Shown here piece by piece: positions 1,186-44,403 of a stretch of DNA of 44,403 bases; within the stretch, counting starts at the first letter, position 1, and every line of letters begins with the position of its first letter. Below the pieces are notes generated by a model. It was given only the letters and a program-made list of their open reading frames with translations, did not search any database and was not told the DNA's origin. Source of the stretch: Orenia marismortui DSM 5156. GTDB taxonomy: Bacteria > Bacillota > Halanaerobiia > Halobacteroidales > Halobacteroidaceae. The translations under genes and the position numbers were made by a program. The stretch spans positions 1-44,403 of the forward strand of contig NZ_KB900617.1 in NCBI RefSeq assembly GCF_000379025.1, read 5' to 3'.

Positions 1186-3300
1186 TTAAAATCTCTCAAA
1201 ATCATCCTCATCAAGATTCATCATTTTAGATAAATCCTCTACCTCTTCTTGTTTCACTTTACTTTTAGTGCTTTCTAAATAATCAAATTTATTATTATTC
1301 AAATCTAATTTAAATCTATTAACTATTTGAGACATATCTTTAGCTTCTTCATTTAAAACTTCACTAGAACTAGCAATCTCCTCTACCATAGAAGCATTAT
1401 CTTGAGTTACTTGATTTAACTCTTCTACTGCTTCTTGAATCTGATTAGCTGCTGAACTTTGTTGTTCCATAGCAGCTGCTATCTCTTCAATTGCTTGAGA
1501 ACTTTGATTACTATTCTCTACAATCTCTTTTAGGGCATATCCTGTCTTCTCTACTAAGTCATTTCCTTCTTCAATCTGTCCAATAATAGCATTAATTAAT
1601 TTATCTATTTCTTTGGCAGATTCTGCAGTTCTACCAGCAAGATTTCTAACTTCTGCAGCTACTACAGCAAAACCTTTACCATGTTCTCCTGCTCGGGCAG
1701 CTTCTACTGCTGCATTTAAAGCTAATAAGTTAGTTTGAAAAGCAATATCATTAACTACTGTAATAATATCAGCTATCTCCTTACTGCTTGCTGTAATCTT
1801 AGACATAGATCTCATAGTTTCATCTACTATTTCAGAACCTTTATTAACAGTTTCTTTACTATCTCGAGCAAAATCATTTGCTTCTTCTGAACTGGCTGCT
1901 ACTTCTTGAATAGAAGCATTTATTTCCTCAATTGTTGCTGATACCTCTTCTAATGAAGATGCTTGCTCTTGAGTTCTTTCTGATAGATCCTGATTTCCCA
2001 TAGAGATTTCATCAGCCGCATTACCAACTGTTGCCGATGATTCTTGTACTTGATATAATGCTTTATTCAAAGAATCGATAGTTTCATTAAGATTATCTGA
2101 CATCTTCTTAAGTTCATTTTTAGCATCAACAGAAACTTTTTGAGTAAAATCTCCATCGGCCACTCGGGCTAATACTTTTTCAATATCACGGATTATTTCC
2201 TGCAAAGAATTAATTGTGTTATTAACACTCTTAGCCATTTTACCTAGCTCATCATCACTATCAAATTCAACCTCTTCACTAAAGTCACCATCTTCTACTT
2301 TAGCCAAAACTTTTCTAATGCTTTTAATTGTTCTACTAATATATTTCGTTATAACCCAGGCGATAGCTATTCCAGTTGCTACTACTATTATTAAAAGAAT
2401 TAAATTAATAACATTAGTAGTGTTAATTTGATTTTGCATATCTGTTTTGAATTTTTTTCTTAAACCTTCTAGTTCATTTTCTACTGCTCTAGCTTTACTT
2501 ACCATAGTACTTTCTGCTGTTTTTTCATTTTCTATAGCTTGTACATAATTATTAAACGCCACTTGATAATTATTAACCGCTTTAATAATATTGTTTATAT
2601 CACTTCGATTATTATCTTTTTCCCAAAGCTTTTCTTTAATTTGCTCAACCTGAGTAGTGATTTCTTGAATATTTTCATCAAATAATTTTAGATATTTCTG
2701 ATCTTCTTTGATAACAAAATTCTTTTCTTCAATTCGTGTATCTAAAATTCCCTTAATTATTCTATTGGCATCATATGCTATTTCAAGTTCTCTATTAATA
2801 ACTTCTATACTTTGATTATTATTTATCACTTTACTAATTTCTACCTTTTGTTCTTTTTTGAAATCTTCGGCAATTCGAATAGCATTCCTAGCAGATTTGA
2901 CCATACTCTGGTCAGCATTCTCTTCCTTTTGATAATATTCTTCGTATTTATCAAAAGCTTTTTTATAATCATTTATATTATTAATAATATTATCCATAAC
3001 AGTTCTATCTTCTTGCTTGTCCAACTTATCTTTGGTATTTCTTGCTTGTTGAATCATATCTTCCACTTCAGAATTAACTTTACTAAGATACTCTTCATTA
3101 TTTCGTAAAATAAAGTTTTTCTCTTGAGTTCTAATTCCTTTCATATACTTAATCATTCGATTAGCATCATCAGCAATTTCTACCTTATTTTCTACTCTAT
3201 TGAAACCCAGATAACTAAATCCTCCTACAATAACCGCTAAAATAATTACTATGCCAAAACCTAATCCTAATTTGCTTCCTACTTTCAAATTTTTAAACAT
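1186..3300 (-). CDS. methyl-accepting chemotaxis protein, helical bimodular (HBM-like) sensor, tandem HAMP
   Basis: Transmembrane chemoreceptor of 704 aa. Transmembrane helices lie at about 11-31 and 297-319. The extracytoplasmic region between them is all helical and visibly duplicated: a DANRxIK...EKNF segment at 46-63 recurs at 178-195, 132 residues later, as expected for an HBM-type four-helix sensor. Two consecutive HAMP-like units follow (both with DGDF, about 320-373 and 377-425), then the MCP signalling hairpin with its highly conserved tip ([21 protein letters not shown]). The C-terminus ends DEDDFERF, matching the tail of the dCache receptor upstream. Last gene of the che operon, 83 bases after cheD. 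AGGGGGGCAG serves as ribosome site. Ligand unknown; HBM domains in other bacteria bind small organic acids. Confidence 0.9.
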
Positions 3301-3383: not shown

Positions 3384-3872
3384 TTAGTATAGTATCTTCG
3401 GCAGTATATTTTTTATTTTTCTTAAATAAACACTACCACCAGCACAAAAATAAATCTGCCTACCATAATTGCCCCCAACATCTTCTGCAATAATTGGAAT
3501 CTTCTCTTTACTAAGAATTTCTCGTGCTAGTTTAATATTTTCTAAAGCTATATTACTATATTGAATTTTAGCAACCTGTCCACCACCAAAAATCTTTGCC
3601 TTTAAATTTTTAGAATTTGCTCCCAAATGAATCATTCTTTCTAATAATAAAGCTATTGCATCTACTCCATACTTAGCTCTGTTATTATTACTTCTACTAT
3701 AACTTTTAGTAGGTAACATAAAATGATTCATACCATAAATCGAATTATTGGAGTCCAGTAAACATACTGCTACACAAGAACCTAATAAGGTAGAAATTAC
3801 TAAATTATTATCTTTAAATACATAGATGTCTCCAGCAAAAATCTCTTTAATTCTTTTTCTTTTAGTAATCAT
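3384..3872 (-). CDS. cheD: chemoreceptor glutamine deamidase CheD
   Basis: CheD deamidates receptor glutamines to glutamates, tuning chemoreceptor output. The 162-aa protein has the catalytic Cys33 in TLLGSCVAVC and His50 in GMNHFMLP, the Cys-His arrangement of the family, and the C-terminal GGNYGR segment. It lies between two receptor genes, 13 bases after the upstream one. The ribosome site is poor (AAAGAA), so translation may be coupled to the upstream receptor. In Bacillus and Thermotoga CheD partners with the phosphatase CheC; no cheC is present here, so regulation of CheD must differ or cheC lies elsewhere. Confidence 0.92.
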   Translation of the reverse strand: MITKRKRIKEIFAGDIYVFKDNNLVISTLLGSCVAVCLLDSNNSIYGMNHFMLPTKSYSRSNNNRAKYGVDAIALLLERMIHLGANSKNLKAKIFGGGQVAKIQYSNIALENIKLAREILSKEKIPIIAEDVGGNYGRQIYFCAGGSVYLRKIKNILPKILY

Positions 3873-3885
3873 AATTGTTTATTCT

Positions 3886-5871
3886 TTAGAACCTTTCAAA
3901 ATCATCTTCATTAAAATCAATTCTACTATTCTCTTCTAAAAGATCAAATTCTTGTTGATAATTCTCATTGACTCTTTCTTCAAAATCAGTCTCAATATTA
4001 ATATTTCCTACTTGTAAGTTTAATTTAAATCTCTTAATAATCTTTAATAACTCTTCAGCTTCATCATTTAAAGAATCGCTAGCACTAGACATTTCTTCAA
4101 CCATAGAAGCATTCTGTTGAGTCACTTGATTTAACTCATCAACTGCCCCTTGTATCTGATTAGCTGCAGAAGATTGTTCTTCCATAGCTGCCGCAATCTC
4201 TGATATCGATTGAGATGTTAGTTTGCTATTCTCCACAATTTGTGATAAAGAATTACCTGTTTCTTCAACCAATTGGTTACCATTTTCAATTTGGCTAATA
4301 ATATTAGTAATTAGCCTTTCTATCTCTTCAGCAGATTCAGCGGTTCTACCAGCAAGATTTCTAACCTCTGCTGCTACTACAGCAAAGCCTTTACCATGTT
4401 CTCCAGCCCGAGCTGCTTCTACTGCTGCATTAAGAGCTAATAAGTTGGTCTGAAAAGCAATATCATTAACTACTGTAATGATATCAGCTATTTCCTTACT
4501 ACTTGCCGTTATCTCAGACATTGATCTCATAGTTCTATTCACAACTTCTGAACCTTCCTCAACTACTTCCATAGTCTGCTGAGATAGATTATCTGTATCT
4601 TCAGAGTTAGCAGCTACCTCTTGGATTGAAGCTGTAATTTCTTCTATAGTAGCAGACACTTCCTCTAAGGAGGAGGCTTGTTCTTGAGTTCTCTGTGATA
4701 AATCTTGATTACCACTAGCAATTTCATCAGAAGCATCAGTTACATTAATTGAAGCCTGTTGCACCATTTTCATAACTCTACTTAAATCATCAATTGTCTT
4801 ATTTAAACTTCTAGCCATTTGACCTAATTCATCATTACTTTTTACTTTAACTTTTTCACTAAAGTCTCCTTTAGCTAGTTTAGATAAGATTCGCTGAACT
4901 TTATTAATAGTTTTAGAAATAGAACCAGACATAAAGAAAACAATTAAAGAAATAATTATAAATAAAATAATATAACCAATAGTTGATTTTCTAACTATCT
5001 CATCTGCTGCTACTGTTAACTCTTTAACTGGTACTGTTAAACCTAATGACCAATCAACTCCAGCAATTGGATGATAATAAACATATTTGTCTTCTCCTGC
5101 AAAAGTATAACGTGCTACATCATAATTTTCTTCTACCATTTTCTCTACTATACTGACCAATTCTTTATTAACAAGATCATTACTTGTATCCAATAAATTT
5201 AAATCAAATACATATTTAGCTTGAGGGTGGGATAAAGTTAAGCCATTATCATCTATCATATAAGCATAACCTGTTTCACCTAATCTAAAATTATTGATGA
5301 TTTTCTGTAATGGTTTTAATAGAACATTTCCTGCTAAAAATGATACAACTTTTCCTTGCTTATCTCTAATTGGAACTGCAATTACAAAAACATCTTCACC
5401 ACTTAATTTTGAATTAACAGGATCACCAATTACTAAATCTTTAGTTTGTTTAATTTCCTTAAAGTAATCTCTTGTACTTAAATCATAAATATTTTGATCA
5501 TATGTAGTCCAAGCTTGACCTTTTAAATTGATCAACATTAAATTAGCAAAGGTTCCTTTAAGAGAGTTAGATTCTATCTTATCTATTATAGGCCATACTT
5601 CTTCTAATTCTTGATCCCAGTCAGAAGACAATTCTAGTGAATTAGCTAAGATTTTAACTTCATTCTTCTTAGCCCCTAACCAATTATTTATTACTTGGCC
5701 ATTATTTTTAACCTGTTCTAAACCATTCTGTTCAACTGTCTGGGTCACATTATCTATCACTAAATTGTAGTTTTGATATAATAATCCCCCTAAAATAATT
5801 ATTAATGGAATTAAAATCGAAACAAGCAATTTATTTCTAACTGTTAATCTTCTTTTTATAAAGTCTAACAT
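3886..5871 (-). CDS. methyl-accepting chemotaxis protein with dCache sensor domain
   Basis: Chemoreceptor of 661 aa. A transmembrane helix at about 14-33, a roughly 250-residue extracellular dCache_1-type domain (features such as [25 protein letters not shown] and the [13 protein letters not shown] strand), a second helix at about 292-312, one HAMP (KGDFSEKV), and the MCP hairpin with a fully conserved tip. It ends NEDDFERF. dCache domains commonly bind amino acids or other small metabolites; the ligand cannot be assigned. AAAGGAGGT is 7-8 bases before the ATG; the gene follows cheB by 15 bases, so it is co-transcribed with its own adaptation enzymes. Confidence 0.92.
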
Positions 5872-5886
5872 AAAAAACTACCTCCT

Positions 5887-6936
5887 TTAATCATTTAAAT
5901 AACTTATGATCTTTTCTACTATTTGATTTAATGCTACTATTTCTGTTGCTGCTCCTATCTCTATAGCCCTTTTGGGCATCCCAAAGATAGTAGAGCTTTC
6001 TTGGTTTTGGACTAAAGTATAACCTCCAACTTCTTTAATTCTTCTTAACCCTTTTGCTCCATCACTTCCCATTCCTGTTAGCAAAACAGCAATTACTGAC
6101 GAATCAGCAAGCTGAGCTAAGGAATTAAAGCTTACATCTACTGCTGGGCGTTGATAATTAACTTTTGCTCCTCTTAGCAATTTAACATAATATCCAGCAC
6201 GACGCTTTTTTACTTCCAAATGATAACCTCCAGGAGCAACTAAAGCTTGTCCAGCAAGAATTTGATCTCCATCTTCTGCTTCTTTAACTTTGATCTTAGA
6301 AATTTGATTTAGATTTTCAGCAAAGGTCTTAGTAAACTCCTTAGGCATATGTTGAATAATCACCACCCCTGGAATATCATCTGGCATCTGAGGTAAGATT
6401 TGTCTAAGTGCTCTTACCCCTCCAGTAGAAGCACCTATAGCAATAATTCTATTCTTTACTTTCTTTTTAATCTTTATTGGAGCATTAGCTTTGGAATTAG
6501 TAGATATATTATATCCTTTTAACTTTCTGACCTCTACCTTAGCAGCAACTGCAAGTTTGTCCAGCAGCTCTCTTTGAAATTCTATTCTCATCTCTCTTTT
6601 AGCTAAATTAGGCTTAGCAACAAAGTCAACTGCCCCTAATTCTAAAGCCTTTAAAGTAACTTGACTACCTTGAGAAGTTAAAGTACTAACCATTACTACT
6701 GGCAATGGATGAGCTATCATCAATCTTTTCAAAAATTCTAGACCATTCATTCTAGGCATTTCTACATCTAGAGTTAATATATCTGGGCTTAACTTTTTTA
6801 TCTTTTTTACTGCTAAAAAGGGATCTCTAGCAGTTCCTACCACTTCTAAATTAGGACTTCTTTCTACAGTACTTTTCAACAATTGTCTTACTACTGGAGA
6901 ATCATCAACTATTAATACTCTGACTTTCTTACTCAT
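5887..6936 (-). CDS. cheB: chemotaxis response regulator protein-glutamate methylesterase CheB
   Basis: Removes methyl groups from receptor glutamates and is activated by CheA phosphorylation. N-terminal receiver (about 5-125) with the acidic pair D11/D12 and phospho-acceptor D57 (TLDVEMPRM). C-terminal esterase (about 160-347) has the catalytic triad in IGASTGG (Ser), QHMPKEF (His) and LLTGMGSDGAKG (Asp). Length 349 aa is normal. AGGAG precedes the ATG by 10 bases. Sits between cheR and the dCache receptor, in the usual pairing with the methyltransferase. Confidence 0.95.
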   Translation of the reverse strand: MSKKVRVLIVDDSPVVRQLLKSTVERSPNLEVVGTARDPFLAVKKIKKLSPDILTLDVEMPRMNGLEFLKRLMIAHPLPVVMVSTLTSQGSQVTLKALELGAVDFVAKPNLAKREMRIEFQRELLDKLAVAAKVEVRKLKGYNISTNSKANAPIKIKKKVKNRIIAIGASTGGVRALRQILPQMPDDIPGVVIIQHMPKEFTKTFAENLNQISKIKVKEAEDGDQILAGQALVAPGGYHLEVKKRRAGYYVKLLRGAKVNYQRPAVDVSFNSLAQLADSSVIAVLLTGMGSDGAKGLRRIKEVGGYTLVQNQESSTIFGMPKRAIEIGAATEIVALNQIVEKIISYLND

Positions 6937-6988: not shown

Positions 6989-7825
6989 TTAAGTAATTTT
7001 CTGATAAGTAGTTTTATAAACTGATCTCCACTTTTGTTCTACCTGTCTACTACTATTTATAGACTCTGAATGACCTAAAAATAAATAACCATCACTTTTT
7101 AATTTTTGATAAAACTGCTTAATGATCTTCTCTCTAGTTTTGGGCCTAAAATAAATAAACACATTTCGGCAGAATATAAAGTCTAAATTATCTTTAATCG
7201 AACTATCTTCAAGTTGATTTAAGTTTAATTTTTTAAATTCTATTAGATCGCGCAGTTCTTCTTTAGCTTTAAATAGATTAGCTTGTTTTCCTCTTCCTAA
7301 CTTAAAATACTTCTTTAATAGATCATAAGGGATTGCATTTACCTTATCATAAGAATAAATTCCCTCTTTCCCAGTTTTTAAAACATCAGTGTTAATATCT
7401 GTGGCCAATATTTTAATATTCCAACTTGTATTAATAAAATATTCTCTAAGTATAATAGCTAAACTGTAAGCCTCCTCTCCGCTAGAACATCCTGCACTCC
7501 AAACTCTAATACTTTTATTTTTATTTCTTTTTTCTATTCTAGGAAGCACCTGCTCTTTTATAAACTTAAAATGATATTCTTCTCTAAAAAATTTAGTTAC
7601 ATTAGTAGTTAATATATTATATATTTGGGATAACTCCTGGGGGGTATTAATTAGATATTGATAATACTCTTCAAAGCTTGTTAGGCCTAGTTTATATAAT
7701 CTTTTAGAAAGCCTAGAATTGACCATTGCTCTTTTTTTGTCATGTAAATTTACTCCAATAGACTTATAAATTAAGCTACTTATTTTTTGAAAAATATCAT
7801 AATTAAGAGTATAATTTCTATTCAT
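6989..7825 (-). CDS. cheR: chemoreceptor methyltransferase CheR
   Basis: SAM-dependent protein-glutamate O-methyltransferase acting on the receptors. 278 aa with the helical N-terminal domain (about 8-75) and a Rossmann methyltransferase domain: VWSAGCSSGEEAYSLA is the SAM-binding loop, and ILATDIN and FIFCRNVFIYF are the characteristic downstream motifs. It starts 2 bases after the cheW stop, using GGTGG inside the end of cheW, so the two are translationally coupled. A tether-dependent CheR would be consistent with the aromatic C-termini of both receptors in the operon, but the relevant beta-subdomain loop cannot be judged by eye. Confidence 0.95.
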   Translation of the reverse strand: MNRNYTLNYDIFQKISSLIYKSIGVNLHDKKRAMVNSRLSKRLYKLGLTSFEEYYQYLINTPQELSQIYNILTTNVTKFFREEYHFKFIKEQVLPRIEKRNKNKSIRVWSAGCSSGEEAYSLAIILREYFINTSWNIKILATDINTDVLKTGKEGIYSYDKVNAIPYDLLKKYFKLGRGKQANLFKAKEELRDLIEFKKLNLNQLEDSSIKDNLDFIFCRNVFIYFRPKTREKIIKQFYQKLKSDGYLFLGHSESINSSRQVEQKWRSVYKTTYQKIT

Positions 7826-7827
7826 AA

Positions 7828-8412
7828 TTAATCCACCATCTCTTTTATATCTTCTTCACTTCCTTTAAAATCAGTAGTCTCTTCTTTACTTTCTTTTGAA
7901 TTTAACTTATTAATTCTTCTAAACTCTTCAAAAGAAACTATCTTATTTAATTCTAATAACATAACTAATCTATCTTCTAATTTAGCCATACCTCTAATAA
8001 AGGTCATATCCACTTCTGAACCAAAGTCTAAATCATCTTGAATATCTTCTTTAGAAAAACTAATAATATCAGATACCTGATCAACTATAACTCCAACGAT
8101 TTTATCTTTGATTTCTAAAACTATAATTACAGTAAAATTATCATAATCTCGTAATTCTAATCCAAATTTCTTTCTCAAATCAATAACTGGAATTACTTCA
8201 CCTCTAAAATTAATTACTCCTTTAACTACCTCTGGTGCATTAGGCATCTTAGTTGGGTTAATATAGCGAATAATCTCTTGAACTTTTAAGACATCTACTC
8301 CATACTCTTCTTCCATTACTTTAAAGGTTAAAAATTGATTCTCAGCAGAAATATTGGTTAATTGTTGATTCAAAATGTTCATTGTATTATCTTGTTGCTC
8401 TGTTTTTCTCAT
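7828..8412 (-). CDS. cheW: chemotaxis coupling protein CheW
   Basis: Scaffold linking receptors to CheA. The CheW fold spans about residues 20-155 (FLTFKVMEEEYGVDVLKVQEI, VIPVIDLRKKFGL, ending FIRGMAKLEDRLVMLLEL). The protein is longer than the usual 150-160 aa owing to a 20-residue N-terminal extension and an acidic C-terminal tail (SKEETTDFKGSEEDIKEMVD). The frame opens at a GTG at 8424, but GGGGTG is 9 bases ahead of ATG 8412, which is taken as the start (194 aa). Lies 91 bases downstream of cheA. Confidence 0.93.
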   Translation of the reverse strand: MRKTEQQDNTMNILNQQLTNISAENQFLTFKVMEEEYGVDVLKVQEIIRYINPTKMPNAPEVVKGVINFRGEVIPVIDLRKKFGLELRDYDNFTVIIVLEIKDKIVGVIVDQVSDIISFSKEDIQDDLDFGSEVDMTFIRGMAKLEDRLVMLLELNKIVSFEEFRRINKLNSKESKEETTDFKGSEEDIKEMVD

Positions 8413-8515
8413 GATTAAATTCACCCCACTTTTTTATTGACTATTATCTATCATCCTATAATTTTAGCTATTTATTTTTTCTAGTAGTTAATAGCTATTA
8501 ACAGTAGCAAATTTC

Positions 8516-10618
8516 CTATCTTGTCGCCATTTTAATAACTGTAGCTATATCCAATATCATTGCTACACTACCATTTCCTAAAATAGTAGCTCCAGCCATA
8601 CCTTCTACATAGGTATAATTCTCTTCCAAACTCTTAACCACTGCCTGTTGTTGACCAATTATCTCATCTACCAATAAACAGGTCTTTTTGCCTTCATCAT
8701 GAACGATTACTACAATGGCTTTAGTAGGATCTGTTGCTTTAGCTTCTAAATTAAATACTTTGTGTAGACGAGTTAAAGTAATATATTCATCTCTAACCTT
8801 AACAACTTCCCCTTTACCCTTTACCGTCTTTAGATCTTTTTTTAATGGTTGAATAAACTCATAAATTGAATTTAATGGGATAATAAAGGTCTCTTCACCT
8901 ACTTTTACTACCATTCCATCAATAATTGCTAACGTTAAAGGTAATTTTAATTTAAAGGTAGTTCCTTTACCTAGTCGAGTAGAGATATTAACTGTTCCCC
9001 TTAATTTTTCAATATTACTCCTAACTACATCCATTCCTACTCCTCTACCTGAAGTTTCAGTTATCTTCTGGGCTGTAGAAAAACCTGGTGCAAATATTAA
9101 ATTATATATTTCTTCGTCCTTTAAATCATCCTTCTGGCCAACAACACCCTTTTTCTTTGCTTTCTCTAATATTTTTTCTTTATCAAGACCTTGACCATCA
9201 TCAGAAATTTCTATCACAATATGTCCTTCTTTATGATAAGCATTTAAAGTAATCTTACCCTCTTTACTCTTTCCTGCTTCTTCCCTTTCAGCTGGTAACT
9301 CAATACCATGATCAATAGCATTTCTAATCATATGTTTTAAAGGATCTGCTATTTTTTCAATAATATTTTTATCTAACTCTGTTTCTTTACCTCTGATATC
9401 TAATACAATCTCTTTACCCTGCTTCCGAGAAAGATCTCTTACTAATCTTCTAAAACGCATAAAAGTATTAGCAATTGGAACCATTCTTACTTTCATAATC
9501 TCCTCTTGTAAATCTTTAATCCATTTTTCTACTTCATCAAAGGCAGTTAACAATTCTGTATTCTTATGACCACCTTCTTTAAAAGCCAACTCTCTTACTT
9601 TAGCTTGGCTAATTACTAATTCAGACATAGTATTCATTAATTTTTCTAACTTATTTGTATCAACTTTAATACTACTTTTTTCTTGCACATTTCTACTTTC
9701 TTTCTGTTCTTTAACCACTTTTTCAATCTGCTTTTCACTTACTTTCCCACTATCAGCTAAAATTTGACCTAATTTCTTCTGTTCTTCTAATGCATCTTTA
9801 ACATCATCTTCTGTTATAATACCTTTTTCTACTAAAATTTCTCCAGTTAATTTATCAGCTAGACTGATATCTAGGCCTTGATCAAAATCAAAATTTTCTG
9901 TAATCTCTTCAATTTCAATCTCATTATCAAATTCAATAAAGATAAATACTTCCTTTATTCTATCAATAGAAACTTGAGTTTTAATCAATAATGTAAAAGT
10001 AAGGTAACATTTTTCTGGATCCATTTCATATATCTCAGGAATTCTAGATAAATTTATATTATTATCTATAACTTCAGAAAAATCTTCTAACTCCTTAATT
10101 AATGCTAAAGGGTCTGTTCCAGTTTCAAAAACATTTTCATTCAATTTTAATTTAATTCGATAAACTTTTTCGTCAACTTTTGATTTTTCTAATTTATTAG
10201 CTGTATTCTTAAAATTAACTTCTTCTGAATTTTTACTTTTTAAAAGGCACTTAAAAGATTTGCTAATCTCATGGATCTTCTGGTCATCGATTACATATCC
10301 AGGATTAATAATCTCTTGAAGCATTTCTTCAACTATATCCCTACTTTCTAATAACAAACTGATAATCTCCCCATTAATTTCTAAATAATCATTTCTAATT
10401 TGATCTAATAAATCTTCAGCATGGTGGACAAAATCAGCAATCTTGCTTAAACCTGTTAGTCCTGCACTTCCTTTTAAAGTATGCATACTTCTAAATATCT
10501 TATTAATTAACTCTTGATTTTCAGTTTCATTTTCCAATTGCAATAAGTCTATTTCCAATTCTCCTAATATTTCCTTTGCCTCTTCAATGAAAATATTTAC
10601 TAAAGCTTCTTCCCCCAT
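8516..10618 (-). CDS. cheA: chemotaxis histidine kinase CheA
   Basis: Central kinase phosphorylating CheY and CheB. P1 HPt domain (about 1-110) with phospho-acceptor His46 in MHTLKGSAGL. A P2-position domain (about 135-245, with the GTDPLALIKELEDFSEV pattern) is followed by an unusual helical segment at about 253-313 containing two similar units (GEILVEKGIITEDDVKDALE and GQILADSGKVSEKQIEKVV). Then come P3 dimerisation (about 318-383), the P4 ATPase with N-box HMIRNAIDHGIE, G1 DDGQGLD and G2 GRGVGMD, and the P5 CheW-like domain to residue 700. AGGAGGTG precedes the ATG. All catalytic boxes look intact. Confidence 0.95.
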   Translation of the reverse strand: MGEEALVNIFIEEAKEILGELEIDLLQLENETENQELINKIFRSMHTLKGSAGLTGLSKIADFVHHAEDLLDQIRNDYLEINGEIISLLLESRDIVEEMLQEIINPGYVIDDQKIHEISKSFKCLLKSKNSEEVNFKNTANKLEKSKVDEKVYRIKLKLNENVFETGTDPLALIKELEDFSEVIDNNINLSRIPEIYEMDPEKCYLTFTLLIKTQVSIDRIKEVFIFIEFDNEIEIEEITENFDFDQGLDISLADKLTGEILVEKGIITEDDVKDALEEQKKLGQILADSGKVSEKQIEKVVKEQKESRNVQEKSSIKVDTNKLEKLMNTMSELVISQAKVRELAFKEGGHKNTELLTAFDEVEKWIKDLQEEIMKVRMVPIANTFMRFRRLVRDLSRKQGKEIVLDIRGKETELDKNIIEKIADPLKHMIRNAIDHGIELPAEREEAGKSKEGKITLNAYHKEGHIVIEISDDGQGLDKEKILEKAKKKGVVGQKDDLKDEEIYNLIFAPGFSTAQKITETSGRGVGMDVVRSNIEKLRGTVNISTRLGKGTTFKLKLPLTLAIIDGMVVKVGEETFIIPLNSIYEFIQPLKKDLKTVKGKGEVVKVRDEYITLTRLHKVFNLEAKATDPTKAIVVIVHDEGKKTCLLVDEIIGQQQAVVKSLEENYTYVEGMAGATILGNGSVAMILDIATVIKMATR

Positions 10619-10629
10619 CTTTACACCTC

Positions 10630-11010
10630 CTAACGAACAAACTTCTTAACTACACCTATTAATTGCTCTGGATTGAATGGTTTTACTAACCAACCGGCTG
10701 CTCCTGCTTGCTTTCCTTCTTCCTTCATTTTATCCTGAGATTCTGTTGTCAGAATTAAAATTGGAATAAATTTAAAATTTCTATCCTTCTTTACTTCTTT
10801 AGTAAAGGTGATTCCGTCCATCTTTGGCATATTAACATCAGTAATAATCATTTTAGGTCTTTCACTAATTGAACTATTCTCTGCTAATTTATCTAAAGCA
10901 TCTTGTCCATCCTCTGCTAATATGACATCATACCCCTCCTTTGTTAAAGTATATTTAACTGATGAACGTACTGTTTTGGAATCGTCTGCAACTAATATTT
11001 TTTTGGACAT
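10630..11010 (-). CDS. cheY: chemotaxis response regulator CheY
   Basis: Stand-alone receiver of 126 aa. The acidic pair is D9/D10, the phospho-acceptor D58 (ITDVNMPKMDG), the switch Thr in ILTTES and the conserved Lys110 in LVKPF. When phosphorylated by CheA it should bind the flagellar switch. Located between the STAS gene and cheA with 6- and 11-base gaps. No dedicated CheC/CheX/CheZ phosphatase gene is in the window, which makes the operon's first gene of interest. Confidence 0.93.
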   Translation of the reverse strand: MSKKILVADDSKTVRSSVKYTLTKEGYDVILAEDGQDALDKLAENSSISERPKMIITDVNMPKMDGITFTKEVKKDRNFKFIPILILTTESQDKMKEEGKQAGAAGWLVKPFNPEQLIGVVKKFVR

Positions 11011-11016
11011 TGAATA

Positions 11017-11307
11017 TCATTCCTCTCTCATTTCATAATCTAAAATTTCATTGACTCCTAATAATTTCAATGTTTCTTCGATTTCTTTACTAATATTATC
11101 CAATTTGAGACTAATCTTTTCCTTTAAAAATGTTTTCTCTAAAGATAAGAGCAGTTGAATTCCTGCAGCATCAAGCCTTTCAACTTGATAACAATCAAAG
11201 ATTAAATTCTTTTTCTCTTCTAATTTACTGATTACTTCTTCTTTAAAGGGATATATAGTAAATATAGTTAACTCTTTAGGTAATTCTAAGGTTAATTCTT
11301 TTACCAC
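11017..11307 (-). CDS. STAS-domain protein in chemotaxis operon
   Basis: A 96-aa single STAS domain, the fold of anti-sigma-factor antagonists such as SpoIIAA. The segment VERLDAAGIQLLLSLEK aligns with the SpoIIAA phosphorylation loop (D-S-S-G), but Ala replaces the phosphorylatable Ser. GTG start preceded by GGGGGTG; six bases separate it from cheY, so it is a bona fide operon member. STAS proteins recur in che operons of Firmicutes and Deltaproteobacteria with no settled role. Loss of the Ser suggests a structural or constitutively bound role rather than a kinase switch, which is inference. Confidence 0.8.
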   Translation of the reverse strand: MVKELTLELPKELTIFTIYPFKEEVISKLEEKKNLIFDCYQVERLDAAGIQLLLSLEKTFLKEKISLKLDNISKEIEETLKLLGVNEILDYEMREE

Positions 11308-11385: not shown

Positions 11386-13248
11386 CTAAAATAGAGTTAA
11401 TTCTCCTCCCGCGCTTCCCACATCAACTTCTAAATCTACCATTTCGTCTTGTGCTGTCTTTCTCTCAATATAACTTGTAAATTTGTCTAATAACTTCTCT
11501 AATTTTTCATTATTGCTATTCCAGTTACTCTTACCTATCTTGGCTAGATAGTAGTCCTTTATTTCTACTACTTCTCTTTGAATTGTTTCTAAAGATTTTA
11601 TAACTTCTTCCCCTACTTCTCTTAAAGTAAAGCAATCTCCTATCTCTTTATTTACACCTTTAACCTCCAAGAAGAGTCTATTAATTGCTTTATTTAATCC
11701 TTGAACTGCTTCTTTGATTAACTTCTTAGTCAAAAATAGGTCTTCTTTTGATTGTCCTATCAATTGATTAGATTTTTTTATTAACTTCTGATTATTCATA
11801 GCCAACTCTATAAAATGACTATAGTTATCTTCTAGTTCCTCTTTTAACTCATGATATAATTCATCATTATGATTACTAGAAGCTATAAATTGTTCTATAA
11901 TGGACTCTATATCTGTAACAAAGGAATGTTTATTATTAGTTATTCTAGAAAATTCAATTTTAGCTAAAAATTTAATCTTGGTAAATTGATTAGCTATATT
12001 GTTGGTTTCATAAAAGCTTTCTTCAATAGCTTTCATATTATCATAAAAATCACCTTCGTTTTTTGCCAAACTATAATATCTACCTTCAATCTTAGTTAAT
12101 TTTTTTCCTAGTTTATTGATAAACTCATCTAAATTTTCATATATTCTCTCAATACTTATCATATCTTTTTTCTCTTCTTTATTATTATCTTCAATTAGAA
12201 ATGAAGTTATCTCCTCACCATCTTTCTCAAGACCTATTAAATCTGAATTAATTTTATTGAATTTATTATTAATTTCAAATAAAGAGTCATCTAATTGTTT
12301 TAATATATTAGAACTTAACTTTTTGGAAAGATTAGAAACTTCATTAAGAAAGATTAAGATATCTAGATTTTCATCAATGGAATCATTACTATTTAATTTA
12401 TCAATCTCTTCCTTCATACTTTGAGTAATCTCGATTAAATTTTCTAAATTCTGTCTAATAATATCTTGGTTCTGTAATAAAATAATAATATCATAGATTG
12501 GTTCTACTACCTCTTTGATATGATCCATAAAGTCCTTCAATAACTTCGAAATTCCTGATAAAGAATCTAAAACAGCAGAAAAAATTTCTTGGCTTTCGAG
12601 ACTATAGTTATTAGCCACCTCTTCTTCAGAAGAAGTTAATTCTTCTAAATCACCTTCAAAACTTTTGTACCATTTTTGCAACTCTAAAATACTTACTTGA
12701 ATAAGTTGATATTTATCCTTGATATTGCTCGTTAATTGCTTAATTTTATTTGATATTACCCTAAAGCCAGCTCCTTCTCTTCCTGTTTTGGCCGAAAATA
12801 TAATTGCATTAATCGATAAAATTTCTAAATCATTTAACACCTCTTCTAACTCTTGAATTAAATTTAATAATTTCACAAATTCAGCCTGTTCATCATCGCT
12901 TTTGTTAATGAACCCTTCTAAGCTATGGGTAACCTCAAACCTTGAGGATAAAACCTCATATACTTTAGCAATTCTTGATTGTAAATTTTCTAAAATTTCT
13001 GATATTTTAAAATTAGCTGACCTAGATTCTCTATGGTTATTTTCTATAAAGTAATTAATTAATAATTCAGTCTCTTCAATGGTCCCATCAATCTCCTCTT
13101 CAATCTCTGGTAATTTATCTGAAATGTGTCCATAAAATTCTTCAGTCTTAGATATCATTTTCTCTAATAACTCTACATTATTATCTAAAATATTATTAAT
13201 CTTCTTTAATTTACTTCCTTTATTATCTATTGAGATTGAATTGTTCAA
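11386..13248 (-). CDS. cytosolic MCP-like coiled-coil protein with CheZ-like DxxxQ motif
   Basis: First gene of the che operon, 620 aa, almost entirely helical, with no transmembrane segment. Residues 141-172 resemble a degenerate MCP hairpin tip (LSINAIIFSAKTGREGAGF versus LLALNAAxEAARAGExGxGF). A second, weaker tip-like segment (IKFLAKIEFSRI) lies at about 424-435, suggesting an internal duplication. Residues 257-271 read LLQNQDIIRQNLENL, which matches the CheZ phosphatase helix pattern (QD..xQ; D262 and Q266 here). The C-terminus ends GGELTLF. The frame opens at ATG 13272 without a ribosome site, whereas AAAGAGGTGAT lies 6 bases before TTG 13248, so 13248 is preferred. Role inferred: soluble signalling scaffold and possible CheY-P phosphatase. 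Confidence 0.6.
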   Translation of the reverse strand: MNNSISIDNKGSKLKKINNILDNNVELLEKMISKTEEFYGHISDKLPEIEEEIDGTIEETELLINYFIENNHRESRSANFKISEILENLQSRIAKVYEVLSSRFEVTHSLEGFINKSDDEQAEFVKLLNLIQELEEVLNDLEILSINAIIFSAKTGREGAGFRVISNKIKQLTSNIKDKYQLIQVSILELQKWYKSFEGDLEELTSSEEEVANNYSLESQEIFSAVLDSLSGISKLLKDFMDHIKEVVEPIYDIIILLQNQDIIRQNLENLIEITQSMKEEIDKLNSNDSIDENLDILIFLNEVSNLSKKLSSNILKQLDDSLFEINNKFNKINSDLIGLEKDGEEITSFLIEDNNKEEKKDMISIERIYENLDEFINKLGKKLTKIEGRYYSLAKNEGDFYDNMKAIEESFYETNNIANQFTKIKFLAKIEFSRITNNKHSFVTDIESIIEQFIASSNHNDELYHELKEELEDNYSHFIELAMNNQKLIKKSNQLIGQSKEDLFLTKKLIKEAVQGLNKAINRLFLEVKGVNKEIGDCFTLREVGEEVIKSLETIQREVVEIKDYYLAKIGKSNWNSNNEKLEKLLDKFTSYIERKTAQDEMVDLEVDVGSAGGELTLF

Positions 13249-13498
13249 GTTATCACCTCTTTCTATTAACATTAAAGAAATATAATCAATAAGATCAAAT
13301 ATTATTACAAATATGTATTGCTAGGGCTTGATTATATAAACTTATTATTATATACTTTATTATTTCTTGATATAATAGCTTTTTCCTTTCTCTTTTTTGG
13401 AAAATAAACCACTTTTATTTTAAAATTTTATTTCTTTTGCACTGTATTATATAAAATAAATCAACTCTACTAGATCCTTTATTGAAAACATTCAAAAA
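13249..13498. other. upstream region of the chemotaxis operon
   Basis: AT-rich intergenic DNA with several TATAAT-like hexamers on the minus strand (for example near 13330-13375). No convincing -35 partner and no TAAA-N15-GCCGATAA sigma-D promoter could be found by eye. The operon promoter must lie here, since the stretch ends at the terminator of the next minus-strand gene. Confidence 0.4.
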
Positions 13499-13568: not shown

Positions 13569-14189
13569 TTACAAATCATAATATTCTTTTAAAATTCCTA
13601 TAAATAAATTTACTAAACCAGGATCAAATTGACTTCCAGCATAACTTTCTAACTCAAGTATTGCTTCTACCACACCTAAGCCTTTTTTATAACATCTATC
13701 AGTAGTCATGGCATCAAAAGAATCAGCTATGGCCAAGATTCTAGCATCTAACAAAATATCTTCTTTAGAAACTCCATAAGGATAACCACTACCATCATAA
13801 CGTTCATGATGTTGAAGAATTATAGTTTCAACCTTTTTTAAGTTATTGCTTTCATTCAAAAATTTAGAAGCTTTAATTGGATGTTCTTTAATTATTTGAT
13901 ACTCTTTTGTACTCAATTTACTTGCTTCATTTAAAATTTGCTTTGGGATATCTAGTTTGCCTATATCATGAAATAAGGCTGCATAAGCTAATTCTTTAAG
14001 CCTTTTTCTGGATAATTCTAAGTTCACACCAATAAGTAATGAATAATTATATACATTCAAGCTATGTTGATACAAAGCTTGATCTGAACTTTGAATTTTA
14101 TTTAATAAATAAAGAAAAAAATCAAAATTGCTAACATCCCTACAGAATCTTTTCTTTAATCCCTCTTCTAAATTTTGACTTACTAGCAT
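13569..14189 (-). CDS. HD-GYP domain protein, probable cyclic-di-GMP phosphodiesterase
   Basis: A 206-aa, essentially single-domain HD-GYP protein. H74-D75 in FHDIGK form the metal-binding HD pair; HHERYDGSGYP at 127-137 is the full HD-GYP signature, followed by ILAIADSFDAMTTDR. All residues expected for c-di-GMP hydrolysis are visible. There is no receiver or PAS input domain; about 20 unassigned residues precede the catalytic core. GGAAGGAGAG precedes the ATG. Monocistronic, upstream of the che operon, so it may help link c-di-GMP level to motility, but that is inference from position. Confidence 0.85.
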   Translation of the reverse strand: MLVSQNLEEGLKKRFCRDVSNFDFFLYLLNKIQSSDQALYQHSLNVYNYSLLIGVNLELSRKRLKELAYAALFHDIGKLDIPKQILNEASKLSTKEYQIIKEHPIKASKFLNESNNLKKVETIILQHHERYDGSGYPYGVSKEDILLDARILAIADSFDAMTTDRCYKKGLGVVEAILELESYAGSQFDPGLVNLFIGILKEYYDL

Positions 14190-16970: not shown

Positions 16971-17000
16971 TTGACAAAAATCGTAATATTCTGTTATAAT
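16971..17000 (+). promoter_or_regulatory. sigma-A promoter of the bioY pair
   Basis: TTGACA (16971-16976), an 18-base spacer and TATAAT (16995-17000), both consensus hexamers. The expected start point is about 17007, at the edge of the BirA operator. Confidence 0.85.
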
Positions 17001-17007
17001 ATTTTTG

Positions 17008-17037
17008 TTGTTAACCATCAATTTTTTTGGTTAACAT
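17008..17037 (+). promoter_or_regulatory. BirA (biotin repressor) operator
   Basis: TTGTTAACC, 12 bases, GGTTAACAT: the palindromic biotin operator of Firmicutes (TGTTAAC-N14-GTTAACA). It starts where transcription should start, so holo-BirA would block bioY transcription when biotin is plentiful. Confidence 0.85.
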
Positions 17038-17072
17038 ATCATTTTAATATTTTCTTAAAGGAGGAAATTACT

Positions 17073-17642
17073 ATGAAGACCAACACTAAATCAATGGTAC
17101 TAGTAGCCCTTTTTGCAGCACTTACTGCTATCGGCGCTTTTATTAAAATACCAACACCTTTTGGAGTACCTTTCAGTCTACAACCTTTATTTGTTATTTT
17201 TGCAGCAAACTTATTAGGAGCTAGACTAGCTTTACTTAGTCAATTAGTTTATATCTTTATTGGCTTAATTGGTATCCCTATCTTTACTCAAGGAGGAGGA
17301 CCAAGCTATGTATTACAGCCTACCTTTGGCTATCTAATTGGTTTTGCAATAGGTGCTTATGTAATTGGAAAATTGATCGAAGCTAAAGAAAAGAATTTCA
17401 AGAACTTTATTTTATCCAATTTAGCTGGACTTGTTGTCTTTTACCTTTTTGGAGTAGCTCATCTGTACATAGTTCTTAACTTCTATTTAGGCAAAACATA
17501 TCCAATTACTCAAGCGTTAGTAGGCGGATTCTTAATCTTCTTGCCTTTTGATATTATCAAAGCTATAATATCAGCTTTAATATCTAAAGAAGTTATTAAT
17601 AGAATAGAAGATGCTGTTCCTATTACAAAGTCAAAAAATTAA
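17073..17642 (+). CDS. bioY: biotin transporter S component BioY (first copy)
   Basis: Membrane-embedded substrate-binding component of an ECF-type biotin transporter. 189 aa, six hydrophobic helices, and the BioY landmarks: AALTAIGAFIKIP near the N-terminus, PFSLQPLFV, and the GGGPSYVLQPTFGYLIGF loop. The frame is open from 16971, overlapping the promoter, but AAAGGAGG sits 8 bases before ATG 17073. The upstream BirA operator confirms biotin as substrate. No ECF ATPases or EcfT are in the window, so it would use the shared energising module or act alone. Confidence 0.92.
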   Translation: MKTNTKSMVLVALFAALTAIGAFIKIPTPFGVPFSLQPLFVIFAANLLGARLALLSQLVYIFIGLIGIPIFTQGGGPSYVLQPTFGYLIGFAIGAYVIGKLIEAKEKNFKNFILSNLAGLVVFYLFGVAHLYIVLNFYLGKTYPITQALVGGFLIFLPFDIIKAIISALISKEVINRIEDAVPITKSKN

Positions 17643-17661
17643 AATTATTATTTAATCTGGA

Positions 17662-18234
17662 GTGATAAAAATTAAAACTAAAGATCTTGTATTAGCTGCA
17701 TTATTTGCTGCTTTAACAGCAGTAGGGGCTTTTATTAAAATCCCTATTCCTTATGTACCTTTTACATTACAGGTTTTATTTGTATTTTTTGCAGGTAGTT
17801 TATTGGGTAGTAAGCTAGCTTTAATTAGTCAATTAGTTTATTTGGGAATTGGCTTAATAGGTATTCCTATTTTTACCCAAGGTGGAGGACCTGGTTATAT
17901 CTTACAACCCACCTTTGGATATTTACTAGGTTTTGCAAGTGCTGCTTATATAATTGGTAAAATCATTGAAAATTTAAAAAAACAAAATTTTATTAACTTT
18001 TTCCTAGCTAATTTAGCTGGCTTAGCTATAGTTTATCTATTTGGTGTAATTTATCTCTATCTTAATCTAAATTTTATAACTGGAACTACTATTAGTCTAG
18101 CTAAAGCAATAAAAATTGGGTTTTTACTTCCAATCCCTGGTGATTTGCTGCTTTGTATAATCGCATCTCTAATATCTAAAAAAGTTCTTAATCAAGTTAG
18201 AGAGGCACTACCTATTATGAATATTAGAAATTAG
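17662..18234 (+). CDS. bioY: biotin transporter S component BioY (second copy)
   Basis: A tandem paralogue of the preceding gene: the same AALTAVGAFIKIP, GGGPGYILQPTFGYLLGF and six-helix layout over about 190 aa, clearly a gene duplication with divergence in the middle and C-terminal helices. It lies 19 bases downstream and ends at a terminator, so both copies are in one BirA-controlled operon. Start is unclear: GTG 17662 overlaps the only ribosome site (GGAG 17659-17662), while ATT 17671 is 8 bases past it; no ATG or TTG is nearby. A second substrate, or dosage, could explain the duplication. Confidence 0.88.
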   Translation: MIKIKTKDLVLAALFAALTAVGAFIKIPIPYVPFTLQVLFVFFAGSLLGSKLALISQLVYLGIGLIGIPIFTQGGGPGYILQPTFGYLLGFASAAYIIGKIIENLKKQNFINFFLANLAGLAIVYLFGVIYLYLNLNFITGTTISLAKAIKIGFLLPIPGDLLLCIIASLISKKVLNQVREALPIMNIRN

Positions 18235-22237: not shown

Positions 22238-23521
22238 TTAAGCAGCTTCCTGTAAATTTGAACGCTTAATATCTCTAAATAATTTTTCACTATCATATTT
22301 CACTTGCTTTTTCCATAAGGCAAATAATACTCTAATTAATTTGCATGATAAAGCTACTAGGGATTGCTTTTTCTTCAAAGGGTTTTCAGAGCGAGTTGTG
22401 TAGTATTCATGAAGTGCTTTAAACTCTTCGTTCTTTGCTACCAGAGGCAGCATCACTCTATATAGTAAAGCTCTCAATTTAGCTCTTCCCCTTTTAGTAA
22501 TACAAGTTCTTCCCTTATGTTTGCCTGAACTATTTTCCATTAAATTCAACCCTGCTAGCTTTTGTATTTGTCGTGGATGTTCATAGTTATTTATATCTCC
22601 AACTTCTGAAATAAATCCTGCTACTGTCTTTATTCCTACCCCTTTGATACTTAACATTGATTCTGAACCTGGTACTTTCTTTAATAACTCTTCTATTTTA
22701 TTGGTTAATTCTTCGCTTTGATTTGTTATATTTTCATATTGATCTAAGAAATAATTTAATTCAAACTTTGCTATTTCAGCTCCTTCAGTTAAACCTACTG
22801 AATTTTCAGCAGCTCTTATAAGCTTTTTAGCTCGTTTTATTCCAACTGCTCTTTTAACTTTTTTCTTCCAAATTGAAACTATTTCTTCTGGTGTCATTTT
22901 TACTACTTCAGACGGCAGAGGAAATGTCTTTAGTGTAACTAAAGACGCCTTTCCATCCCAACCTTTAAATACTGTTAAATATTCAGGAAAATACTTATCA
23001 ATAAACTGATGTATCTTTCCTACTACCCGTTGTAAATCTTTATTTAATCTTTCCATATGGGTCATTGCTACACGAACATCAGCATAAACACCAACTGGTA
23101 TATTAGGCTCTGAATAGCGCCCATCTTTAACTAATTGAGCTATTACTTTAGCATCTTTCTTATCATTCTTTGTCGGAGAATTATCATCTAACTCTTTACT
23201 TCTCTTTGTATGACTTGGATTGACTAATACCAACTTTATTTCCTTGCATCTTAAAAGTTGAGCTAAATTCAACCAATAATGACCTGTTGGCTCCATTCCA
23301 ACTATTATATCTTCTTTCTCATATTGATCTTTTAATTTAAACATCCACTTTGAAAAGTTATCAAATCCTTCTTTTGAATTTTGAAAAGCTAACGCTTTTC
23401 CGTATTCAATACCACGATAATCTTGAGCTCTTGCAACATGCTTTTTCTTTGCAATATCAACCCCAATCACTAAAGTTGAAGTTTTTACTTGCATTATTTT
23501 ACGATTTCGATTATAATTCAT
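22238..23521 (-). CDS. IS110-family transposase (DEDD recombinase)
   Basis: 427 aa. N-terminal RuvC-like DEDD domain: D22 (VIGVDIAKKKHV), E77 (GMEPTGHYW), D120 and D123 (TKNDKKDAKV). The C-terminal Transposase_20 domain has SIKGVGIKTVAGFISEVG and the catalytic-serine region around S332 (ENSSGKHKGR). Both halves are full length and uninterrupted, so the element may be active. AAGGAGG lies 10 bases before the ATG. A hairpin (23547-23565) lies between a TATAAT-like -10 and the ribosome site and may limit expression. Confidence 0.9.
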   Translation of the reverse strand: MNYNRNRKIMQVKTSTLVIGVDIAKKKHVARAQDYRGIEYGKALAFQNSKEGFDNFSKWMFKLKDQYEKEDIIVGMEPTGHYWLNLAQLLRCKEIKLVLVNPSHTKRSKELDDNSPTKNDKKDAKVIAQLVKDGRYSEPNIPVGVYADVRVAMTHMERLNKDLQRVVGKIHQFIDKYFPEYLTVFKGWDGKASLVTLKTFPLPSEVVKMTPEEIVSIWKKKVKRAVGIKRAKKLIRAAENSVGLTEGAEIAKFELNYFLDQYENITNQSEELTNKIEELLKKVPGSESMLSIKGVGIKTVAGFISEVGDINNYEHPRQIQKLAGLNLMENSSGKHKGRTCITKRGRAKLRALLYRVMLPLVAKNEEFKALHEYYTTRSENPLKKKQSLVALSCKLIRVLFALWKKQVKYDSEKLFRDIKRSNLQEAA

Positions 23522-43507: not shown

Positions 43508-44403
43508 TTAAATTGCAATATTAAATTGAACTAGTTTCAAACTGTAATAATTTGGTTAATTAGTTATATAGAATTTCTCTTAGTTGATCTTCAAAAGCTT
43601 CATCAGGAGTTAGGTATCCTAAAATTTTTCTTGGTAGAGTATTACACCAGTTTTGAACTCTAGCAATAGATTCAATAGAGAATTCACTTATACTTCTGCC
43701 TTTAGGTATAAAACGTCTTATGAGACCATTATGACGTTCATTGGTACCTCTTTCCCATGATGAATAGGGATGAGTAAAATATACTTTTGTATCAACTATT
43801 TCTTCTATAGAACCTAGCTCTGAAAATTCAGAGCCATTATCGCAGGTAAAGCTTTTAAATACATTAGAAAAAAGCTCTCCAGAGTCTTTGATTAGTTTTA
43901 ATATAGCATTTTGAACAGATTCAGCTGTTTTACCAGGAATTTTACGAATGATTTCTTTACGAGTCATGCGCTCTGTCATAGTGAGTAAAACTTCATCATT
44001 TTTATTCTTTTTACCAATAACAGTGTCAATTTCCCAATGCCCAAATTCGCTGCGATCATTAATATTTTCAGGGCGTTCATCGATACTTGTGCCAAGTTTC
44101 TTTTTATTACGCTTAAGACATTTTGATTTTGAAGAACGTTTAAGCTTCAATGGCAAATCAATATTGCTAATCTGAAGTAGTCCAAGATCTATATAGTTAT
44201 ATAGAGTTTTAGTGCATACCATCTCTGACTTTGAGAATTTGTTATGCAGCTTTGCTGCACCACAAATAGAATCAAGAGATTGTTTATGCTCGCAAAATAA
44301 CTCTATAACATAATCAATGAATGTTTCACATTCTAAAAGCTTAAATTTCGGTCCGCAATTTTTACGATTAGATTCATAAACTTTTTGACCAGCGTCAGGG
44401 AAG
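43508..44403 (-). mobile_element. IS30-family element, truncated by the window edge
   Basis: The 3' end of an IS30-like element. A candidate terminal repeat with TTGCAATATTAAATTGAAC lies at about 43513-43532, about 30 bases past the transposase stop, resembling IS30 ends. The other end is outside the window, so its completeness is unknown. Confidence 0.65.
43560..44402 (-). CDS. IS30-family transposase, C-terminal 281 codons
   Basis: The frame is open without a stop from the window edge (44402) to 43560, including FPDAGQKVYESNRK upstream of the first internal Met at 44222, so the gene simply runs out of the window and is not truncated by mutation. The DDE core is complete: D in HWEIDTVIGKK, D in FTCDNGSEF, and E in GTNERHNGLIRRFIPKGRSI. 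The upstream helix-turn-helix (CGAAKLHNKFSKS, TLYNYID) is partly visible. No frameshifts seen. Confidence 0.9.
   Translation of the reverse strand, partial: FPDAGQKVYESNRKNCGPKFKLLECETFIDYVIELFCEHKQSLDSICGAAKLHNKFSKSEMVCTKTLYNYIDLGLLQISNIDLPLKLKRSSKSKCLKRNKKKLGTSIDERPENINDRSEFGHWEIDTVIGKKNKNDEVLLTMTERMTRKEIIRKIPGKTAESVQNAILKLIKDSGELFSNVFKSFTCDNGSEFSELGSIEEIVDTKVYFTHPYSSWERGTNERHNGLIRRFIPKGRSISEFSIESIARVQNWCNTLPRKILGYLTPDEAFEDQLREILYN

Follow-up and report, generated by a model that had tools for sequence, protein, structure and literature searches.

The first gene of a chemotaxis operon in Orenia marismortui DSM 5156 encodes an MCP-like protein in which a receptor-type coiled coil is followed by an invariant motif with the aspartate and glutamine of CheZ-type phosphatases. 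Judged from its sequence, this protein would be accessory to a second chemosensory system, combining a receptor-derived coiled coil with a CheZ-like CheY-P phosphatase helix; we give this reading a probability of about 0.55. It would probably act as the off-switch for the CheY signal of its own operon. The first-pass annotation of the window (the whole analysed stretch of 44,403 nucleotides) had described an MCP-like protein with a DxxxQ motif and proposed a combined scaffold and CheY-P phosphatase: the observation is confirmed, and the phosphatase proposal is partly supported by sequence comparison. CheY-P would dock on the CheZ-like helix as it does in CheZ, with D262 engaging the conserved CheY lysine and Q266 positioning the attacking water, and the MCP-like part may hold the phosphatase at the array or couple it to CheA/CheS. 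The CheY of the window has intact catalytic residues. We infer both the association of the MCP-like protein with the array and a function of its C-terminal tail.

The operon and its receptor-like first gene

The open reading frame runs on the minus strand from 13248 to 11386 and encodes 620 residues from a TTG start (13248–13246), with a good ribosome site, AGGTGAT, directly before it; an alternative in-frame ATG at 13272 gives eight more residues (628 in all). Counted from the TTG, the positions initially assigned to D262 and Q266, four apart, are correct, and both lie in QNQDIIRQNLENL (residues 259–271, window positions 12474–12436). The degenerate hairpin tip, noted earlier as lying about 100 residues before the motif, is located at residues 147–166 (NAIIFSAKTGREGAGFRVIS) and precedes QNQDIIRQNLENL by about 95–115 residues. 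All genes of the operon are on the minus strand, in the order MCP-like gene, STAS, cheY, cheA, cheW, cheR, cheB, MCP, cheD, MCP. The features are as follows.

11386–13248, minus strand: MCP-like scaffold with CheZ-type motif (ORF call and orthologues)
13252–13258, minus strand: ribosome-binding site AGGTGAT, before the TTG (sequence)
12751–12810, minus strand: degenerate MCP hairpin tip NAIIFSAKTGREGAGFRVIS, residues 147–166 (Pfam MCPsignal, E 3e-7)
12436–12474, minus strand: CheZ-type motif QNQDIIRQNLENL, residues 259–271, with D262 and Q266 (invariant in 15 long homologues)
11944–11970, minus strand: FLAKIEFSR, residues 427–435, second conserved stretch, long members only (homologue alignment)
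11389–11409, minus strand: conserved C-terminal tail GGELTLF (homologue alignment)
11017–11307, minus strand: STAS-domain protein, CheS-like in position and domain (Pfam STAS, E 1e-13)
10630–11010, minus strand: CheY, catalytic residues conserved (Pfam and residue check)
8516–10618, minus strand: CheA (Pfam)
7828–8424, minus strand: CheW (named from sequence; conserved neighbour)
6989–7825, minus strand: CheR (named from sequence; conserved neighbour)
5887–6936, minus strand: CheB (named from sequence; conserved neighbour)
3886–5871, minus strand: transmembrane MCP (named from sequence)
3384–3872, minus strand: CheD (Pfam CheD, E 4e-28)
1186–3300, minus strand: second transmembrane MCP (named from sequence)

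Open reading frames and Pfam comparison reveal no cheC, cheX, fliY or cheZ among the genes of this operon. Several further features of the window were recognised by eye: an HD-domain (HD-GYP-like) protein on the same strand directly upstream of the operon (13569–14189), a tandem pair of similar small membrane proteins with the look of BioY-type transporter components (16971–18234), an IS110-like transposase (22238–23521) and part of an IS30-like transposase (43560–44222).

The protein is homologous in sequence to the MCP hairpin. It matches Pfam MCPsignal (PF00015) with E 3e-7 and 30.7–30.8 bits, below the cut-off of 34.6; the domain is matched in all 15 long members, at least nine short relatives pass the cut-off, and among PDB sequences the profile matches MCPs best (E 4e-14). 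The window protein shows no transmembrane, HAMP or sensor domain. Its AlphaFold model is all helical (pLDDT 80, pTM 0.55), with a long helix at 120–257, a break at 258–259 and a helix at 260–287 that starts at the motif. The model of a 218-residue relative, of low confidence (pLDDT 62), has the motif in a hairpin (70–124/128–171), on its second helix. Two plasmid-derived rows were excluded from an alignment submitted for folding. CheZ itself is a dimeric four-helix bundle built of two helical hairpins; both models are helical and carry the motif on a late helix. Foldseek and VIA-align searches with the two models return mostly unrelated helical bundles, CheZ not among them, and do not discriminate between such folds. 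The FLAKIEFSR stretch, which lies in the C-terminal half, resembles another degenerate MCP tip and suggests an internal duplication in long members, of which it is possibly the second hairpin tip.

Conservation of the motif and its relation to CheZ

A bare DxxxQ proves nothing, because composition alone predicts about one in a protein of 620 residues (1.2 expected, one found), and the two residues might stand four apart in a coiled coil by chance. The longer pattern QxQDxxxQ, by contrast, is expected 0.0014 times, yet it is invariant in 15 of 15 long homologues, with identity down to 24% in the full-length alignment, and in 19 short relatives—34 proteins in all. Such conservation already contradicts a chance origin, to which we give next to no credence. 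Orthologues thus keep the motif, whose loss the first-pass annotation had held to speak against a phosphatase. Q259, Q261, D262, Q266 and E269 are each invariant in the 15 full-length homologues. Residues 259–270 form the best-conserved 12-residue stretch of the long family, ahead of the MCP tip, and in the short family the motif shares the top place by the same measure.

Full-length members are found within the same class, in Orenia metallireducens, Halanaerobacter, Natroniella, Fuchsiella and Candidatus Frackibacter among others, and a few occur in other genomes of the phylum. A scan of genome contigs with a single protein as query gave no match, and a scan with the alignment gave five orthologues. 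Profile search uncovers a wider family of MCP-like proteins of 313–427 residues in Bacillota and Proteobacteria, plasmid members included. The supposed new arrangement is not peculiar to this operon: it is that of a larger family whose members are annotated as MCP. Short members share one layout: the MCP tip is followed by QFQD[IL]xxQ, a YTTxxERxxH stretch and a C-terminal NVELF-like tail; several begin with a hydrophobic segment. The long- and short-family profiles match each other with E 3.6e-16 and the motif in register, and the short-family profile finds exactly one match in the O. marismortui genome, the motif of the MCP-like gene (E 3.8e-4). On these profiles, the two families are homologous across tip and motif.

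The gene keeps company with cheY: at most loci it adjoins cheY or STAS-cheY. Long members mostly directly precede STAS-cheY-cheA, several short members stand in the order cheA-STAS-[MCP-like]-cheY, and none of the clusters checked contains a CheC, CheX or FliY homologue. A Pseudomonas plasmid has the order [MCP-like]-cheY-STAS-cheA, and on a Methylobacterium plasmid the member adjoins a response-regulator gene with cheA nearby; these two came from weak plasmid tblastn matches with the C-terminal segment (E about 1 and 8), and their motif, tail and neighbouring genes assign them to the family. The long protein also occurs in extra copies, one with no che genes recognised beside it (L084:9408-11528, genome G147) and one after cheR-cheD-MCP (L080:3212-5032, genome G050).

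One genome, G351, separates the two parts. In its cluster, cheA is followed by a small protein at the place of STAS, then by cheY, a motif-plus-tail protein and a separate MCP-tip protein. The motif-plus-tail protein (L105:1129-1782, 217–218 residues) carries QFQDITRQ and LGNNVELF behind a hydrophobic N-terminal (membrane) segment and lacks the MCP tip; the overlapping gene that follows (L105:1730-2992, 420 residues) has the MCP tip but no QxQDxxxQ motif. Since the protein is split into two genes here, the motif-plus-tail part forms a unit, which in this one case is encoded apart from the tip.

We compared both families with a CheZ profile of seven sequences, one of them E. coli CheZ (confirmed at 99.5%). 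When the motif region of the 19 short members is aligned to it, D143 and Q147 fall in register, with a score of about 30; same-family windows that lack the motif reach no more than 22, ordinary MCPs no more than 17 and reversed sequences no more than 16. The hhalign E-values of 3.7e-4 to 5.2e-4 (probability 37% at E 3.7e-4) apply to a single comparison among coiled coils. The long-family profile with the window protein aligns in the same register, but with E 0.43, no better than decoys. The suggested profile comparison thus bears out the active-site register in short relatives and gives no significant direct match for the window protein. Several short members give sub-threshold matches to Pfam CheZ (PF04344; E 0.002–0.02, at best 18.5 bits against a cut-off of 30.7), no long or short member reaches the cut-off, and the window protein has no match. 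Because the long family shows no significant direct similarity to CheZ, the window protein is tied to CheZ through its relatives and its motif: D262/Q266 and their counterparts in long members have the catalytic spacing of D143 and Q147, and the short relatives have it in register.

The same non-significance would fit another account, in which the QxQDxxxQ helix is a conserved interface (to CheY, CheS, CheA or in dimer packing) devoid of phosphatase activity, and the protein serves the second array as scaffold or adaptor. Long-family conservation beyond D and Q (Q259, R265, N267, E269, N270) also exceeds what catalysis needs. However, the residues held in common with CheZ are the catalytic pair, and in short relatives the FQD-[IL]-x-x-Q surroundings are shared as well; we consider a pure interface unlikely.

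Phosphatase genes elsewhere and the second chemosensory system

The genome of O. marismortui has two CheA, and a separate cheW-cheA-cheY-cheB cluster exists besides the operon of the window. The initial claim that cheC, cheX and fliY are missing holds for the operon but not for the genome: CheC with CheD, FliY, and CheX are present elsewhere. Matches to PF04509/PF13690 lie on contig C7, and none is at the MCP-like gene. Among 28 family-bearing genomes, every one has at least two CheA, which links the family with an additional chemosensory system, and every one has CheC-type genes elsewhere. The latter count rules out the family as a genome-wide substitute for CheC-type genes.

The first-pass annotation had reckoned as evidence against itself a cheC, cheX or fliY gene elsewhere that accounts for all phosphatase activity, and half of this is found: such genes exist. 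CheC, CheX and FliY could then clear the CheY-P of both systems, leaving the motif as a relic, the more so as all 28 relatives carry CheC-type genes. Yet FliY and CheC adjoin flagellar genes on a contig other than that of the window, a separate cheW-cheA-cheY-cheB cluster exists, and invariance at 24–30% overall identity is unexpected for a relic; this possibility appears very remote.

A further route for signal termination is offered by Sinorhizobium CheS, a STAS-only protein that, bound to CheA, affects the binding and dephosphorylation of CheY1 (PMC12654446). The STAS protein of the window, as judged by domain and position, resembles CheS, and its gene stands between the MCP-like gene and cheY in the window and at many homologous loci. 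It might end the signal through CheA as CheS does, with the MCP-like protein as a receptor or adaptor only. This route is nevertheless compatible with a DxxxQ phosphatase, as rhizobia with CheS also have CheT, which carries a DxxxQ motif (PMC12654446), and it leaves the invariant motif unexplained; as the whole explanation it seems improbable. CheT of Sinorhizobium meliloti and Agrobacterium is described as a CheZ-like DxxxQ phosphatase from the same cluster as CheS (PMC12654446). Given this parallel with the window operon, a cryptic DxxxQ protein alongside STAS and CheD may be a recurring plan of such operons.

Implications and comparison with known systems

How second chemosensory systems switch off CheY-P often lacks an explanation, since CheZ, CheC and CheX may be missing from their operons. 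If true, a phosphatase module inside a receptor-like protein would supply one for a class of such systems, found in Bacillota and Proteobacteria. More tentatively, and with somewhat less than even confidence, we suggest that the QxQDxxxQ motif with its NVELF-like tail marks an unrecognised and widespread class of CheY-P phosphatases on chemoreceptor coiled coils, serving STAS-containing second systems, in which a receptor-like protein ends the signal and with which CheZ may share ancestry. Where annotation was seen, family members are labelled only as 'methyl-accepting chemotaxis protein', and the literature searched, with incomplete coverage, holds no description of a CheZ-type motif in MCP-like proteins. 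A phosphatase module inside a receptor-like protein would also make control of the phosphatase by the state of the array directly testable, and would offer a hint at the origin of CheZ.

Compared with MCPs of PF00015, such as the soluble Thermotoga receptor 3g6b, the window protein has the same hairpin tip pattern, NA...G..GxGF..(V/I), but its tip is degenerate and below the cut-off, and it has about 300 extra residues with the DxxxQ segment. With the CheC, CheX and FliY phosphatases it would share the role on CheY-P, while family and motif are unrelated. CheT, compared by description only, is again CheZ-like and carries DxxxQ, has no significant homology to chemotaxis proteins already known, and belongs to a system with CheS (STAS) and CheD; it stands, however, as a protein on its own, one that binds CheR (PMC12654446). 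The likeness to CheZ itself comprises D and Q four apart, in short relatives within the FQD-[IL]-x-x-Q context, a motif on a late helix in the models, a conserved hydrophobic C-terminus and a gene near cheY. CheZ ends in a peptide that binds CheY; the conserved tail of the MCP-like family has another sequence. The MCP-like family differs from CheZ in falling below the PF04344 cut-off, in being joined to an MCP-type coiled coil, in its tail (GGELTLF/NVELF, against the DDLLDSLGF type of CheZ) and in serving a second, STAS-containing system.
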